Origin: Candidatus Poseidoniaceae archaeon | GTDB taxonomy: Archaea > Thermoplasmatota > Poseidoniia > Poseidoniales > Poseidoniaceae | Direction of reading: 5' to 3' | Length of the DNA stretch: 64,000 nt | Assembly (NCBI GenBank): GCA_949373095.1 | Contig: CASIBY010000005.1 | Span: forward strand, 174,955 to 238,954 | Part shown: positions 5,676-12,876 of the stretch, one piece after another | Layout: each line of letters starts with the position of its first letter | Numbering within the stretch: position 1 is the stretch's first letter | The notes under the pieces: generated by a model | Told to the model about the DNA's origin: nothing | What the model saw: only the letters and a program-made list of their open reading frames with translations | Database searches by the model: none | Program-made: the position numbers and the translations under genes

Positions 5676-8297
5676 ATGCCTACCGTCCAGCATCCGTTTC
5701 TTCATGACGGTGTTGAAGCGAGAGCATACCAAATTCGCTCACTTGAACGGTGCCTTTCAGCTTCGACATTGATGGTTATGCCGACAGGATTTGGCAAAAC
5801 CGCCGTAGAGTGGATGGTGATGGCCGAATACCTTCGCAGAGGGGTTGAGAAGATCATCCTCATAGCACCAACAACCGGTTTGGTTGACCAGCAACGAAGT
5901 ATGGCACAGCAACACCTCAATTTGCCTAATGATGAAATTGTGGCGTACACCGGCGAGACTGTCCCTGGAAAAAGGAAAACATTGTGGGAGCAAGCAAGAG
6001 TCCTGATGGCAACGCCTCAAGTTATTCGCAATGACGCTCAAAGCGGTACTATCAACCTCAACGAGGTTGGACTGCTTATCGTTGATGAAGCACATCATGC
6101 TACGGGGAATCACGCCTATGCGCAGGTGGGGAAACTGTATCGCAGAGCACGTCCCGATGGTCGCATCTTAGCAGCAACTGCAAGTCCAGGCTCGAATGCA
6201 CGGCACATTGATGACGTCCAAAGAAATCTTGGCATTCAACTGGTTGATGTCTCAAAACGGGATGAGCCTCTCGTCAAACCCTTCGATGTTGACATGAAGA
6301 TTCATGAGGAAATCATCGACCTCCCCCCCTCGCTAAGATTATTGATTACTCCCTTGGAAGAGCATTTTTTATCCGAAGTCAAGCACTTGCAACAACTCGG
6401 ATTCCTTGCTCCAAAAGAACATGTGTCTTCTGGCGATATTGAAAAAGCCCAATTACGGGCAAGTCGAGCAATCCAACAGCGTGATGTTCGAGGCTATGAT
6501 GCTGCTCGTAGAGTTGCGGACCTTCGTCGGATGCACATGCTTGTAAATCTTCTCAAAACACAAGGTACGGATGTTGCTCATTCATTTCTAGAGCGAGCGG
6601 AGATTGAAGGACGAGAAGGAAGAAAAACCAATCGTCTGCTCTCCCTACCTGTCATTCATGAATTGCGTAAATCCTTGGCTGATATTGAAGAATTACATCC
6701 CAAGACATCTGTTGTAGAACGGCTCGTGATACAAGAAATTGGACAAAAACCAGATGGAAAAATTCTCGTATTTACAGAATTCAGAGACACTGTAAGTAAT
6801 CTCGTCGCAAGATTAAGTTCGATTGATGGACTCAAACCTGACAGATTCATTGGGCAATCCTCCCGTGGAGCACAAAAAGGAATGACTCAGAAACAACAGT
6901 TAGCCCAACTAAACCGGTTCCGGGAAGGGGAAATCAATGTTCTCGTTGCCACTTCAGTTGGGGAAGAAGGACTGGATGTTCCTGCTGCTGACCTTGTAAT
7001 TCTTTACGAACCGGTACCAAGTGCGATTCGTGCAATTCAGCGAAGAGGAAGAACTGCGCGTCAACGAGCCGGTTCGGTTCATGTGTTGATCACCAAAGAA
7101 ACCCGTGATGTCTACATTCATTCAGCCTCCAAGCATCAAGAAAGGAACATGCACCGTTTAGTCGATAAAATGGTACGTCAGAAAAAACTCATGGATGAAT
7201 ATGGAGATTTAGACGGGCTCTTAGACCCGTTTCAAGTGAGTGATGAAGGTGAAAACCTACCAGCGCTTGTGTTTCTCGAACGAGAGAAGGAACTCCACAA
7301 GTCAGAAGAAACTGAACCATTCCCACTACCAGGAGTAGCCATCAAGGAAGGGCAAAAACACGTCCCGAGGACAGCCCTGCCTCTGACACCAGAACAACGG
7401 CGGCCAAGGGAACAAAGTGGATTGTATTCCTTTACTGGAGAACATGATACGGATCCTAAGGAGCAACAAATTTCTGAACAATCTATCTCTGTGATATTAA
7501 ATGCGGCAGATGAAGAGATATCCTCATTAAATTCCGTCAGCGGAGAAGAACGTGAAATTCTCATTGACCATCGAGAAATGAATTCAACTTTACCGTCCTA
7601 TTTGGCGAGCCTTGGATTCAAAACGCGGATTACACACCTCCCTCACGGTGATCTTCGACTCTCTGAGCGCATACTTATAGAACGGAAGACTGCAAGAGAT
7701 TTATTGGCTTCAATAAAGGATGGTAGGCTTCTCAACCAATGTCGAAGCCTACGAGCAAGCGCTGCACGTCCGATGTTGTTGATTGAAACGGGAGGAGACG
7801 CAAGCTACGGCCTTCATCCAAATGCTGTACTTGGAGCGTTAGCCCACATCACACTTGATATGGGAATCCCTGTAATGATGACAAAGGATGCTATGGAGAC
7901 TGCACATTTTGTATCGATTGCAGCCCAAAGGGAGCAGGACTTGCTCGAAGCATTTCATGAAATGGTCAATTCCGGAACCACGACAGGGACGGCGTTGAAA
8001 TCTGTCATGGAACAAGCAGCACGTGAAATTGACGAACTCTTAGTTGAACCTGAAGCCTCTCACCCATGGCTGGAAAGTGCACAGCAACAACTTGAACGAT
8101 GTTACGAGCACGCTCTCTCCCAACTCACCGATGTAGGAGATGAGGAACGTGAGGTGATGAATGCCTTCTCACCCCACCTCGGAGCATTGTTTACCGCAAC
8201 GGAAGGGACTCTCATCAAGGAAACAGGATGTGGATTAGATATCGCCAATCGAGTCCTTCAAATCTTGAAGGAAAACAGTAACATCAAGATCCAATGA
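5676..8297 (+). CDS. hef: Hef-type helicase/XPF nuclease
   Basis: An 873-residue archaeal Hef protein, the FANCM/XPF-like enzyme that processes stalled and branched replication forks. The superfamily 2 helicase half shows Walker A MPTGFGKT (35-42), motif II DEAH (about 137-140), motif III ATAS, and motif VI QRRGRTARQR (about 454-463). A charged linker leads to the XPF nuclease: VDHRE-like DHREMNST, then GDLRLSERILIERKT near residue 670, preserving the GDxxxxxxxxxERK active-site pattern. The last 50 residues resemble a degraded helix-hairpin-helix region. It overlaps the convergent HdrB-like gene by 14 bp. Full length, no frame problem seen. Confidence 0.93.
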   Translation: MPTVQHPFLHDGVEARAYQIRSLERCLSASTLMVMPTGFGKTAVEWMVMAEYLRRGVEKIILIAPTTGLVDQQRSMAQQHLNLPNDEIVAYTGETVPGKRKTLWEQARVLMATPQVIRNDAQSGTINLNEVGLLIVDEAHHATGNHAYAQVGKLYRRARPDGRILAATASPGSNARHIDDVQRNLGIQLVDVSKRDEPLVKPFDVDMKIHEEIIDLPPSLRLLITPLEEHFLSEVKHLQQLGFLAPKEHVSSGDIEKAQLRASRAIQQRDVRGYDAARRVADLRRMHMLVNLLKTQGTDVAHSFLERAEIEGREGRKTNRLLSLPVIHELRKSLADIEELHPKTSVVERLVIQEIGQKPDGKILVFTEFRDTVSNLVARLSSIDGLKPDRFIGQSSRGAQKGMTQKQQLAQLNRFREGEINVLVATSVGEEGLDVPAADLVILYEPVPSAIRAIQRRGRTARQRAGSVHVLITKETRDVYIHSASKHQERNMHRLVDKMVRQKKLMDEYGDLDGLLDPFQVSDEGENLPALVFLEREKELHKSEETEPFPLPGVAIKEGQKHVPRTALPLTPEQRRPREQSGLYSFTGEHDTDPKEQQISEQSISVILNAADEEISSLNSVSGEEREILIDHREMNSTLPSYLASLGFKTRITHLPHGDLRLSERILIERKTARDLLASIKDGRLLNQCRSLRASAARPMLLIETGGDASYGLHPNAVLGALAHITLDMGIPVMMTKDAMETAHFVSIAAQREQDLLEAFHEMVNSGTTTGTALKSVMEQAAREIDELLVEPEASHPWLESAQQQLERCYEHALSQLTDVGDEEREVMNAFSPHLGALFTATEGTLIKETGCGLDIANRVLQILKENSNIKIQ

Positions 8298-9144
8298 GCC
8301 GGACACGTGTTCGCAATTGAGCAAAACGGTCAGGATAAAATCCTAGAGCGAATGCAACAATTTCGGAAAGATGACACACGGGTACAATGGTATTCTTGCC
8401 TGTAACTCGACCTGCTTTGGATTGATACGAGTCCAAGTTGACATGCGAGATGGTGCAAGCACTAACTATGAGTTCAGCACCAGAATCAATCGCGTCCGAG
8501 AGCACTGCTGCTGTCATTGAAAGAGATGTATCTTCTAGGGATAGAACTGATGTTGAGCCGACACTCAGGCATTTGGATTCATAGTCCACAGCATGACCGC
8601 CGAGGGCCTCGAAGAGTTGTTCCATGTAAGTGGGCATGAAAGGGTCGTCGTTTCCACAAGCCCCTTCTCGTTGCATATCTGGGCCGTAGTAAGCCGCAAC
8701 ATTCATCTTGAGAGGGTTCTTCACTGCATCTCGGATTTTATCGAGTCCAATCTCTTCTACGAGATAGTGAAGCAGATGCCATGATTTGGATTCTCCTGTA
8801 TACTCAATGTTTGAAGTCCGAACAACAAGGTTGTTGATTTGGCTGGCGTAAACCGGGTCACGAGCCATGTCTTGTGCAGTATTGCACATGATTGCATGAC
8901 TGCTTGCACAGGTAGTCAATACGTCAAGTCCTTTGTCTTCGGCAAGGGCAAGGTTACGGGCAACCAGTGCGTCTTGTAGTTTAGGAGTGGCCTGCTTGAT
9001 GATGTTTCCACCGTCACTACTTGAGCGAGGAAGTTCAACCAGTTGAATGTTCAAGGCTCTGCAAAGAGGTTGAATCATATCTTCAACTTCAGAAGCGCCT
9101 GCTCTGGCAACATTTCCGGGATAGTATGTGATTTTCACCATCAT
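8284..9144 (-). CDS. HdrB/SdhE-like CCG-domain protein lacking most cluster cysteines
   Basis: A 286-residue protein with the two-repeat CCG fold of heterodisulfide reductase subunit B and of SdhE in some archaeal succinate dehydrogenases. Family landmarks remain: YPG near residue 9, TTCASSHAIMCNTA, AAYYGPDMQRE, VSACTISHVNLDSYQ. Most cysteines expected to hold the non-cubane [4Fe-4S] clusters are replaced: YPGC is YPGN, the first CCG is SSSDGG, YGC is YGPD, and the second CCG is KCLSVG. The start is one of two adjacent ATGs behind GAGGTGAA. It follows the ferredoxin-flavodoxin fusion by six bases, so the two are surely co-transcribed. A catalytic Hdr role is unlikely; a structural or flavin-linked role is a guess. 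Confidence 0.75.
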   Translation of the reverse strand: MMVKITYYPGNVARAGASEVEDMIQPLCRALNIQLVELPRSSSDGGNIIKQATPKLQDALVARNLALAEDKGLDVLTTCASSHAIMCNTAQDMARDPVYASQINNLVVRTSNIEYTGESKSWHLLHYLVEEIGLDKIRDAVKNPLKMNVAAYYGPDMQREGACGNDDPFMPTYMEQLFEALGGHAVDYESKCLSVGSTSVLSLEDTSLSMTAAVLSDAIDSGAELIVSACTISHVNLDSYQSKAGRVTGKNTIVPVCHLSEIVAFALGFYPDRFAQLRTRVRLIGS

Positions 9145-9150
9145 TTCACC

Positions 9151-11115
9151 TCAAAATCGTTGGTCTATCTCATTGAAGAGAGAGACTACCTCATGGTAAT
9201 CGTGAACCTTAGAATTGATCATCTTAGGTATACGTCCAAGTCCGGCCGGTGGAAGCAGAAGGGATTGGAGGCTGCGGATTGGGGGAGAACCGTTTCGTGT
9301 AAATGCGAGGGCCATACGGGCAGAGACTCCGCTGAAGACGTTGCCTACGAGTCCAAGAGGGCCGAGAACTTGACGGTAAAGTGTCGTTTCGTTGACCTTA
9401 CCGGTCCACTTGACACTCCGTCCGTACCACTTGACCAGCCGCCCATGCTTACCGGCGTACTTGGTTTGATTGAGTAATTGCATTCGTGCTTCGTTAAGAC
9501 TGTGCGCTGCAAGACGGCCGTCTTCTCCAAAGCGCATTAAACTGGCATGGTCTGCTTCAGACCACACACCGTCTCGTTGCAAGAGCGAGTTCATGATACT
9601 ACGGCGTTGTTCTTGGCTGGTTCGTGGATCCTTAGCACGCAACCATTGCTGGAAGTGAACGCCAGGACCTTCGTAATGTGAATCATGGGCTAATGTATCC
9701 GACATTGCTTGGATTAACTGGAAGGATTGGACATCGCCAGCAAGGTGGAGAGTAGTTGCAAGGGTCGGCTCCATGGTCCCAAGTGCTGCTCCAGATGGAA
9801 GACGTTCACCTTCACGAGGATCTGTTCGCATCCATGGTTCGGCTCGGCTTCGATGGTTTTCGTAGCGTGAGGTATCGACGATGAGGTCCCGAACGACTGG
9901 GTGGCCGGGAAGAGGTTCTACCCGGACCCGCCCTCCGTCAGAGGTAAGGTCAGCGATCATTGTTGAATCTGAAAGTGTGACACGACCGTTTACACGAATA
10001 CCGGTGGTTGGTGTCCCAGCACCGTTTCCTCTTCTAAACGCAAGACTTCCGTCAACATCCTGTTGCATGGATATGAGAAGGTCTTGGACTGTTGCGTGGC
10101 CGGGGACGCTACAAGTGAGCGTATCCCATCCGGATTCTGCTGCATCTGGACAGTATCGGAACAATTCAAGCGTAATGGTCAATTCTTCACGAGCAATCTT
10201 ACCAGGTGTGAAATCACCCTCCGCTACATCGTCGTCATCACCGGACCCGTAGGCCTTCATTTCTTCAAGAAGTTCTACCTGAAGGGTACCTGATGAATCA
10301 ACACACGCCAGAAGCGGAAGTGCTTCATTCACCCAAAGTTGCCAGGGAGCGTCAAAGTCCACGTCACATTCTTGCAGAGGGTGGGCTTCATGTCCACCCA
10401 ATGATGCGAGTTTACCATTCCAATCGTGACCTGCCTTACAGAATTCATCGTAGGAGGAATCACCGATTGCACAGATGGAAAAGTGAGTACTTGCAAGACC
10501 TGGACCGTTAGCATTGATCGCATTCCAAGCTGATTCTGCGTTGTCCGGCATTTCACCTTCGCCCCAAGTAGAGGTGATGATCATAACACGCTTCATTGAA
10601 GCCAGTGAGGCTGGGTCAAGCCCATCCATATCAACCACTTTTGCTTCAAGGCCGTAGTTGCCCGCCATCTTAGCGGTTTTTTCAGCAAGACCCGCTGCGT
10701 TTCCAGTTTGTGACCCAAATAAGATGTTGATTGTGCGGTCGCCTGCGAAGACTGCGTTAAGTTCGTCCGATGCACCTGCGGCGGGCGCAACTGCGGCCAC
10801 CGCTGCTGGAGCAACTTCTGCTACTGCTTCTGCTGCGACTTCAGTAACTGCAGCACCATCACCAACAAGTTCGAACTTGATCACTTCTACGGGGCAAGCT
10901 TCTGCGGCCTCAAGAATAATGTCTCCAAGTTCTGCACCAAGCGTACCAGTAAGTAGTGACCCGCCTTCGTTTCTATCGAATAAGCCGTCCGTGCGAACTG
11001 CCGCCAAAATCATGGACGAACCGTCGGTGACCTCGAATACTTCGGGACAAATGTCCTGGCATGCATCACACGTGATACAATCTTCGTCAATCCATACTTT
11101 TGCGACAACTGCCAT
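9151..11115 (-). CDS. Ferredoxin-flavodoxin-SdhB/HdrC-like triple fusion
   Basis: A 654-residue redox fusion. Residues about 5-80: ferredoxin with DEDCITCDACQDICP and a later EACPVEVI, enough for one [4Fe-4S] cluster. An Ala/Glu/Val-rich linker follows (about 85-120). Residues about 128-270: flavodoxin domain of the CysJ/P450-reductase type, with FMN phosphate loop ILFGSQTGNAAGLAEK and TSTWGEGEMPDNA. Residues about 315-654 resemble the iron-sulfur subunit of succinate dehydrogenase/fumarate reductase: RYCPDAAESGW, FRRGNG, RVNGR, PLPGHPVVRDLIVD, and a C-terminal GKVNETTLYRQVLG-like segment. The cysteines that should bind the 2Fe-2S and later clusters are missing; no Cys occurs in the last 300 or so residues. 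Upstream of the HdrB-like gene. Confidence 0.8.
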   Translation of the reverse strand: MAVVAKVWIDEDCITCDACQDICPEVFEVTDGSSMILAAVRTDGLFDRNEGGSLLTGTLGAELGDIILEAAEACPVEVIKFELVGDGAAVTEVAAEAVAEVAPAAVAAVAPAAGASDELNAVFAGDRTINILFGSQTGNAAGLAEKTAKMAGNYGLEAKVVDMDGLDPASLASMKRVMIITSTWGEGEMPDNAESAWNAINANGPGLASTHFSICAIGDSSYDEFCKAGHDWNGKLASLGGHEAHPLQECDVDFDAPWQLWVNEALPLLACVDSSGTLQVELLEEMKAYGSGDDDDVAEGDFTPGKIAREELTITLELFRYCPDAAESGWDTLTCSVPGHATVQDLLISMQQDVDGSLAFRRGNGAGTPTTGIRVNGRVTLSDSTMIADLTSDGGRVRVEPLPGHPVVRDLIVDTSRYENHRSRAEPWMRTDPREGERLPSGAALGTMEPTLATTLHLAGDVQSFQLIQAMSDTLAHDSHYEGPGVHFQQWLRAKDPRTSQEQRRSIMNSLLQRDGVWSEADHASLMRFGEDGRLAAHSLNEARMQLLNQTKYAGKHGRLVKWYGRSVKWTGKVNETTLYRQVLGPLGLVGNVFSGVSARMALAFTRNGSPPIRSLQSLLLPPAGLGRIPKMINSKVHDYHEVVSLFNEIDQRF

Positions 11116-11253: not shown

Positions 11254-12876
11254 TCACATGTTGAAGTCGCCCATGCCACCCATGCCGCCTTCCATAGGAA
11301 CGCCCTTGGATGAAATCACGTCATCAATACGCAGAATCATGATTGCTGTTTCGGTTGCTGACTGAATCGCTTGTTCAACGACACGTAGAGGTTCAACGAC
11401 ATTGGCTTTGTTCATATCGGCCACACCGCCGTCATAGACGTTGATTCCTGCAAAGGATTGCCCGTCTGCGTGAGCTTTGCGTAATTCAATGAGCGTAGTG
11501 ACTGGGTCAAGGCCAGCGTTTTCCGCCAGGGTACGAGGAATGATTTCTAGAGCAGAGGCAAAGGCTTCAATGGCCATTTGCTCACGACCGCCTACAGTTT
11601 CGGCAAAGGTTCGCAAGTCTCTTGAGAGTGCTGCGAGGACACTGCCGCCTCCTGTTAGTACCGCCCCATCTTCCCATGCGACGGAGACAACTCCAACCGC
11701 ATCGTCAAATGCACGTCGGATTTCATCAACAACGTGTTCGGTTCCACCACGAAGGAGAACGGAAACGGATTTCGCTTCAGGGCATCCGGTCACGAAGGTC
11801 ATGTTTGATTCGCCAATTTTCTTTTCTTCAACACGAGCAGCAAGCCCCAAGTCGGATTCGCCCATATCTTCTAGGTTGGTGATGATGGTCCCGCCAGTTG
11901 CTTTTGATAGAGCTTCCATATCGGATTTCTTAGCCCGACGAATGGCGAAAATTCCTTTCTTGGAAAGGTAGTGTTGTGCCAGTTCATCGATTCCTTTCTG
12001 GCAGACCAATACATTTGCACCAGCGGATTCAATCGTATTGACCAAGTTGCGAATGTAATTCTCTTCTTCTTCAAGAAACAGTGCTAGTTGGTTTGGGTCA
12101 GTGATCTGAATCTTTGCATCAACTTCCGTTTTCTTAACTTCAATAGCCGAGTTCACAAGTGCTATCTTTGCATCACTCATGACCCGCGGCATTCCTGCGT
12201 GGACGCGCTCCTTATCCAAAAGAATACCATCAATCAATGATGAATCTTTGATGGAACCGCCTTGGCGCTTCTCGACCTTAATATCAGACAAATCCACGAG
12301 ACGCTCGCCCTCTTCCGTGATACCGACTGCGTTAACTGCACGGACGCATATATCGGCCATAAACGACTTCACTGCACCTGCTGATTTTCCGGTCAGGGCT
12401 GTCTTTGCCACTTCCAAAAGTACTTTGTCGTCGTTTTCAGTGGAGATGCCATGGTTTTCAAGAAGACCAATAGCCCGCTCTGCAGCAAGGCGAAATCCCT
12501 CACAGATGACTGTGGGATGGACGTTTTGCTCAATCAAATCCTCACTTCGCTTGAGAAGTTCTCCTGAAAGAATCACTGCAGAGGTTGTACCATCGTAGCA
12601 GTGTTGTTCCTGAGTTTTTGCAACCTCAATGATCATCTTAGCTGCAGGATGTTCGATGTCCATTTCCTTGAGAATGGTTGCTCCGTCGTTCGTAATGACA
12701 ACATCGCCCATAGAATCAACAAGCATCTTGTCCATACCTTTGGGACCGAGCGTAGACCGAACCGCATCAGCTACTGCTTTTGCAGCAGCAATGTTGTTCG
12801 ATTGTGCAGTTCGTCCACGAGTTCGTTGTGTTCCATCCTTAAGGATGAATATAGGAGCTTGTCCATTTCCGTACAT
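11254..12876 (-). CDS. thsA: Thermosome subunit (group II chaperonin)
   Basis: A 540-residue cytosolic chaperonin subunit that folds proteins inside a double ring in an ATP cycle. It has the N-terminal [21 protein letters not shown]-binding [24 protein letters not shown], a GDGTT-equivalent written CYDGTTSAV, and the Gly/Met-rich C-terminus [11 protein letters not shown] that projects into the cavity. In the ATPase motif Tyr replaces the first Gly, but the catalytic Asp is kept. Single gene with its own upstream gap of 77 bp; other subunits, if any, lie elsewhere. Confidence 0.96.

Follow-up and report, generated by a model that had tools for sequence, protein, structure and literature searches.

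Two adjacent minus-strand genes in the window (the whole analysed stretch of 64,000 nucleotides from a Candidatus Poseidoniaceae archaeon) encode homologues of the SdhB/HdrC and HdrB/SdhE subunits in which nearly all of the cluster cysteines are substituted. The pair, here called F and B, is probably a remodelled and nearly iron-free complex II core, which would take part in a chain with a FAD/NAD(P)H reductase (FNR), a ferredoxin or flavodoxin carrier and the flavodoxin of F. All of the evidence on the pair is computational; it shows the homology, the loss of cysteines, the conservation, the exchange of domains and an association between FNR fusion and the place of the carrier. The exchangeable carrier on F and its association with the fusion of FNR are new in this analysis.

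The host lineage is Marine Group II (MGII, Ca. Poseidoniales), an uncultivated marine lineage that is very abundant and in which little is understood of electron transport, and the relatives that bear the pair include Poseidoniaceae and Thalassarchaeaceae. The pair descends from a known family, and the pair itself was not found described in the literature searched, the coverage of which is partial: the accessible parts of the MGII genome and transcript papers contain no description of it, it has no entry in the accessible part of a survey of archaeal gene fusions, and a targeted literature search returned nothing relevant.

Architecture of the locus

F lies upstream of B, and 6 bp separate the two open reading frames. 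The features, in window coordinates, are as follows.

9151..11115, minus: gene F, 654 aa, a fusion of ferredoxin, flavodoxin and a cysteine-less SdhB-like part (open reading frame, family matches, order-wide conservation)
10864..11109, minus: F residues 3-84, a single [4Fe-4S] ferredoxin with ligands C13/C16/C19/C74, the exchangeable carrier (Fer4_13 8e-10, conservation, swap)
10300..10740, minus: F residues 126-272, the core CPR/CysJ-type flavodoxin with FMN loops GSQTGN, STWGEG and GDxSY (Flavodoxin_1 6.5e-26, invariant columns, CysJ fold with a TM-score of 0.91)
9862..10185, minus: F residues 311-418, the SdhB N-terminal [2Fe-2S] beta-grasp domain with 4/4 ligand cysteines substituted (Fer2_3 1e-11, alignment to intact SdhB, hhalign)
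9154..9861, minus: F residues 419-654, the SdhB C-terminal helical domain and HdrC/class-E-type extension with 8/8 ligand cysteines substituted (alignment, hhalign, structure)
8284..9144, minus: gene B, 286 aa, an HdrB/SdhE-like subunit with 8/10 CCG cysteines substituted (TIGR03288 1.2e-36, model pLDDT 91, HdrB TM-score 0.87)
9013..9015, minus: B D44, at the second cysteine of the first CCG motif; 125/125 distinct relatives have C or D here
8908..8910, minus: B C79, the first cysteine of the first CxxC, retained in 124/125 distinct relatives
8455..8457, minus: B C230, the first cysteine of the second CxxC, retained in 125/125, the other motif cysteines of that cluster being lost
11254..12876, minus: thermosome gene, the conserved neighbour upstream of F (genomic context only)

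Homology and predicted folds

In addition to the matches listed above, profile searches relate F to cysJ (6e-34) and to SdhB (PRK05950, 4e-19), with PRK12576 spanning residues 309-518, that is, both SdhB domains, and relate B to the SdhE of MFR (NF042965, 4.6e-33) and to CCG (3.9e-05). The NCBIfam matches fall under the curated equivalog cut-offs and therefore indicate kinship rather than membership. In the profile-profile comparison with hhalign, the SdhB part of F aligns with intact SdhB with a probability of 99.6 and an E value of 1e-23; the 313 aligned columns take in the C-terminal extension. The predicted structure of F, in which the last 100 residues (beyond about 550) are modelled poorly, matches FrdB/SdhB over approximately 244 columns with a target TM-score of approximately 0.72, and the best fold match of its flavodoxin is that of CysJ.

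The top solved matches of the B model are HdrB chains, with TM-scores of 0.86-0.87 that place B within the HdrB fold. The closest solved structure is methanogen HdrB, at 25-26% identity; an HdrB-like fold is also found in Helicobacter pylori 3kwl (TMq 0.74 to B, 14% identity), which is listed as uncharacterised. The homology of F with SdhB/HdrC and of B with HdrB/SdhE is firm. The original prediction of adjacent minus-strand genes of HdrB type and SdhB/HdrC type is thus borne out by the open reading frames, family matches, hhalign and predicted folds, and the relation to the HdrB and SdhB families that it proposed to check is confirmed by profile search and structure prediction alike.

The core flavodoxin, which is of the same type as those of the diflavin reductases CysJ and cytochrome P450 reductase (CPR), is found in every complete member, and its FMN-loop residues are invariant and among the most conserved in the alignment. 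In an alignment that consists almost wholly of ferredoxin-type members, conservation of the ferredoxin cysteines 13, 16, 19 and 74 is 90% or higher. The intact ferredoxin and FMN-type flavodoxin that had been noticed at the N-terminus are accordingly seen in the conservation of both.

Probable descent from class-E complex II

The closest relatives of B outside the class occur in other Thermoplasmatota, in family f6 and then in f27. Their counterparts are SdhB-SdhE pairs, which lie directly behind SdhA in both of the two loci examined. These intact relatives carry 12 (SdhB) and 10 (SdhE) cluster cysteines: all 15 SdhB proteins have exactly 12 cysteines in the matched part, and the CCG motifs of the SdhE proteins examined are complete. 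Their layout is that of class-E complex II (SdhABE; 8-methylmenaquinol:fumarate reductase, MfrABE), in which the ten-cysteine motif of SdhE is akin to heterodisulfide reductase (PMC2680327) and the membrane anchor is probably peripheral (PMC10238741).

Like F-B, class-E complex II has adjacent genes for SdhB and an HdrB-like SdhE, and the folds are the same over the full length, including the C-terminal SdhB extension. In all 80 loci, each fetched independently, F and B stand next to each other; in most they overlap or are separated by a few bases. However, no SdhA is found beside the pair in these 80 loci, no SdhB ligands are present, only two of the ten SdhE cysteines remain in the window, and a flavodoxin and a ferredoxin are fused ahead of SdhB. 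The pair also differs from methanogen HdrB/HdrC in that no member has a complete set of CCG cysteines, HdrA is absent, and the intact relatives in the phylum lie behind SdhA. The proposed HdrB/HdrC-like identity is therefore correct as to homology, whereas the source is best described as the SdhA-SdhB-SdhE type of class-E complex II rather than methanogen HdrBC. In both the SdhB tree and the B tree, the Poseidoniales proteins cluster as one group distinct from the intact ones; the long branches make the placement of the exact sister group uncertain. Three features that define complex II (the SdhB ligands, the SdhE motif and SdhA) are missing from the pair, which should thus be filed neither as complex II nor as Hdr.

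Cysteine loss and retained residues

When the window proteins are aligned to their intact relatives, F retains none of the 12 SdhB cluster cysteines and B retains two of ten, C79 and C230; N11, S43, D44, S82 and four residues of the second CCG set stand at the replaced positions. The cysteines of F are located at residues 13, 16, 19, 23, 74, 215, 226, 250, 271, 322 and 335, and the final 319 residues contain none. Both the near-complete loss of cluster cysteines from the two proteins and the cysteine-free last 300 or so residues of the fusion had been noticed in the sequence.

None of the members sampled has an SdhB cluster or the second CCG cluster. No C..C or C....C pair occurs in the SdhB-like part of F in 77 members, the second CCG set of B is reduced to one cysteine in every member, and no B member retains the second noncubane-cluster CCG motif of HdrB. 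About 20 of the 125 distinct B proteins, spread over both families, have a complete first CCG set, and B in the relatives retains at most the first five cysteines plus one of the ten-cysteine motif. The degeneration idea was to fail if relatives in the clade kept the cysteines; a minority of them do so, and for just one of the five ancestral clusters.

The kept or lost state of the first CCG set requires four changes on the F and thermosome trees and two on the B tree. If regain is excluded, the first CCG cluster was lost late and on two or more occasions, the tree of the adjacent gene pointing to about four. The B tree sorts the kept and lost types by state, at odds with the F and thermosome trees, and the two lost groups cease to join once the motif columns are removed, which indicates that the grouping by state is likely an attraction through parallel change; gene exchange is possible. 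A single coordinated loss of the clusters is ruled out by the later and repeated loss of the first CCG cluster, so that of the coordinated, old and selected change originally proposed, the age and the selection stand but the single event does not.

The residual pattern of B consists of N11, S43, C or D at 44, C79, T, S or A at 82, C230 and S233, with H123 conserved in 125/125 and H258 in 124/125 proteins. This regular pattern looks like a site that has been kept or rebuilt. B may accordingly still be an enzyme, in which the SdhE/HdrB pocket has been rebuilt as a mononuclear metal site or a thiol pair with C/D44, C79 and C230, is reduced by the core flavodoxin and acts on a quinone or a disulfide. 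The near-invariance of these three positions and of the two histidines is consistent with such a site, and the lineages that keep the first CCG cluster without an SdhB wire make direct reduction by flavodoxin plausible. The conserved residues may, however, be structural, and we judge a catalytic B to be unlikely.

Exchange of the carrier domain and the candidate partner reductase

The N-terminal carrier of F is a ferredoxin, a second flavodoxin or none, depending on the lineage. A second flavodoxin stands in place of the ferredoxin in 28 of 80 loci, and several other F proteins have the core flavodoxin only, with F starting approximately 100 bp past the thermosome stop. As these architectures show, the ferredoxin domain of F is not essential. 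One candidate for the flavodoxin-only type (locus L199) was rejected, as its ferredoxin lies in another frame, probably through a frameshift.

The F profile search also matched a protein of 603-643 aa in some genomes, which is composed of flavodoxin, FAD_binding_1 and NAD_binding_1 and is thus a diflavin reductase. Its FNR part is found in 78 of the 80 Poseidoniales genomes (no match in G091 and G111), mostly without flavodoxin. In some genomes the partner FNR is therefore a full diflavin reductase, like CysJ or CPR, whereas in the window the flavodoxin is joined to a scaffold of SdhB type and a protein of its own supplies the FAD/NAD(P)H part.

A flavodoxin is fused to FNR in none of the 52 genomes with ferredoxin-type F, in 7 of 16 with two flavodoxins on F and in all 7 resolved flavodoxin-only genomes. 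The association of carrier type with FNR fusion (Fisher 1.5e-9) treats genomes as independent of kinship, and few of the events are independent (fusion at least twice, and carrier loss in three genera). The counts leave aside an eighth flavodoxin-only genome, G036, in which the apparent flavodoxin-FNR gene is split over two contigs, and the resolved set leaves aside G112 and G121, whose F architecture is of uncertain class. In unfetched genomes, "not fused" is judged by an open-frame length of 416-474 aa; the sole longer FNR frame, in G005, was read and contains no flavodoxin.

Within genus g15, three stages are present: two flavodoxins on F with a free FNR (G058), two flavodoxins on F with a fused FNR (G109), and a flavodoxin-only F with a fused FNR (G053). 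The flavodoxin of FNR and the N-terminal flavodoxin of F are close kin within lineages, for example in G107 and in G014/G090. A carrier that is located on either of two proteins is a classical sign of electron exchange between them. The occurrence of the carrier domain on F or on FNR thus supports the relay between ferredoxin and flavin that was put forward originally. FNR is not encoded next to the pair, and related FNR and flavodoxins are present in MGIII where the pair is absent, which indicates that FNR has other partners too.

Proposed electron-transfer chain

Under the explanation we favour, F and B would derive from two subunits of class-E complex II, SdhB and the HdrB-like SdhE. The ancestor of Ca. 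Poseidoniales would have uncoupled them from SdhA and dispensed with all clusters of SdhB and the second one of SdhE; it would also have acquired, at the N-terminus of SdhB, a CPR/CysJ-type flavodoxin together with an exchangeable carrier, either a ferredoxin or a second flavodoxin. The last SdhE cluster would also have been lost later in several lineages.

The members of the chain may be arranged as NAD(P)H, the FAD of FNR, the ferredoxin or flavodoxin carrier and the core FMN of F, an order that implies no direction of electron flow. FNR would interact physically with the pair, and the core flavodoxin presumably binds FMN. As the old SdhB wire is impassable for electrons, the core flavodoxin must make direct contact with its partner, as the tethered FMN domains of CPR meet theirs. 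The clusterless SdhB/SdhE fold may serve as a scaffold and as a docking surface for this partner, and candidate acceptors are complex I, the quinone pool and a centre in B. If this is true, the pair documents, in natural steps, how a respiratory Fe-S enzyme sheds its clusters while strong selection preserves the fold, and it is a concrete candidate for the passage of electrons among NAD(P)H, ferredoxin and flavodoxin in Poseidoniales.

A bolder and doubtful version is that, perhaps under marine iron scarcity, a complex II core has become an essentially iron-free flavoprotein machine that forms a main route from NAD(P)H or ferredoxin to a membrane acceptor in an archaeal group that is among the most abundant of the ocean. 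SdhA would have been replaced by a flavodoxin, the Fe-S wire deleted and the SdhE pocket rebuilt (C/D44-C79-C230), and the end state (a flavodoxin-only F and a diflavin FNR) would be without a recognisable Fe-S site. Algae and cyanobacteria are known to replace ferredoxin by flavodoxin when iron is limiting (PMC5322553), and the carrier swap on F (ferredoxin, flavodoxin or none) would be a testable genomic trace of iron economy.

If complex I is the acceptor, F-B and FNR might together serve as the input module that feeds electrons from flavodoxin or ferredoxin into a complex I devoid of the NADH module. In Campylobacter jejuni, a complex I without NuoEF is known, and its donor is flavodoxin rather than NADH (PMC4178425); the likeness to F-B lies in this donor, the adaptor subunits there being Cj1574c/Cj1575c. 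All 16 genomes tested encode a 49 kDa subunit of complex I (by PF00346, which matches hydrogenase large subunits too), and a NuoF-type protein is found in just 3 of the 16, in no case in an obvious nuo cluster. Nevertheless, the tested MGIII/f3, f6 and f27 genomes that have no NuoF also have no pair, and the pair is unlinked to nuo genes; such an input module is a rather improbable role.

It is far less probable still that the pair works in a complex II-type quinone reductase with an SdhA encoded elsewhere. The SdhB and SdhE folds are retained and an SdhA exists in the genome, but this SdhA belongs to a separate ordinary SDH, where it sits with its own SdhC and intact SdhB, and F has no Fe-S wire from SdhA to quinone. 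The presence of the ordinary SDH also indicates that the pair is not needed for succinate oxidation.

Conservation, selection and neighbourhood

The pair is detected in 55 of 59 relatives and in 248 of 293 genomes of the class, many of the pair-negative genomes being incomplete MAGs or members of family f3 of the same class. The pair is thus retained in related genomes, and recurrence of the same pair in more than 200 genomes excludes chance. In unsaturated comparisons within the same genus, B has a dN/dS of 0.015-0.056 and F one of 0.016-0.040. That the two are decaying genes or pseudogenes, as the loss of many ligand cysteines might suggest, is refuted to near certainty by these low dN/dS values (about 0.02-0.06), the order-wide retention, the invariant FMN loops and the confident fold of B.

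The pair occupies a fixed position, with the thermosome gene on one side and a helicase/ribosomal block on the other. No operon partner is found in the 80 loci, where the flanks consist of thermosome, helicase and ribosomal genes only. The conserved downstream neighbour throughout the order is a helicase/nuclease-like open reading frame, which in the window lies on the plus strand at 5676-8297 and overlaps gene B tail to tail by 14 bp (8284-8297).

In genome G037 (L037:2841-5831), F and B lie in one 997-aa frame without the end of F, which is either a natural fusion or an assembly error and was left out as a possible assembly artefact. Two loci titled Deltaproteobacteria (L124) and Chloroflexi (L146) carry a Poseidoniales pair and are probably mislabelled; L146 also has Poseidoniales flanking genes.

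Related genes outside the pair

In G063, a genome of family f3 in which the pair was not found, two proteins with flavodoxins of the same type (L231:2449-3441 and L230:1603-2400) lie approximately 20 kb apart, and one of them is fused to a 4Fe-4S dicluster ferredoxin.

The genome of the window also contains, outside the window, a 940-aa open reading frame with two CCG domains and 4Fe-4S motifs (L205:4365-7184) beside a Rieske-like open reading frame (L205:8065-8910). Matching frames of 918-968 aa are found in all genomes tested. As MGII is known to have no canonical bc1 (PMC6336850), the 940-aa frame and its Rieske-like neighbour may belong to an unusual MGII complex III. G058 has extra CCG frames of 412, 437 and 693 aa (L206, C9:73000-90000), which are unique among the genomes tested, and a NuoF-type protein is encoded elsewhere in that genome.
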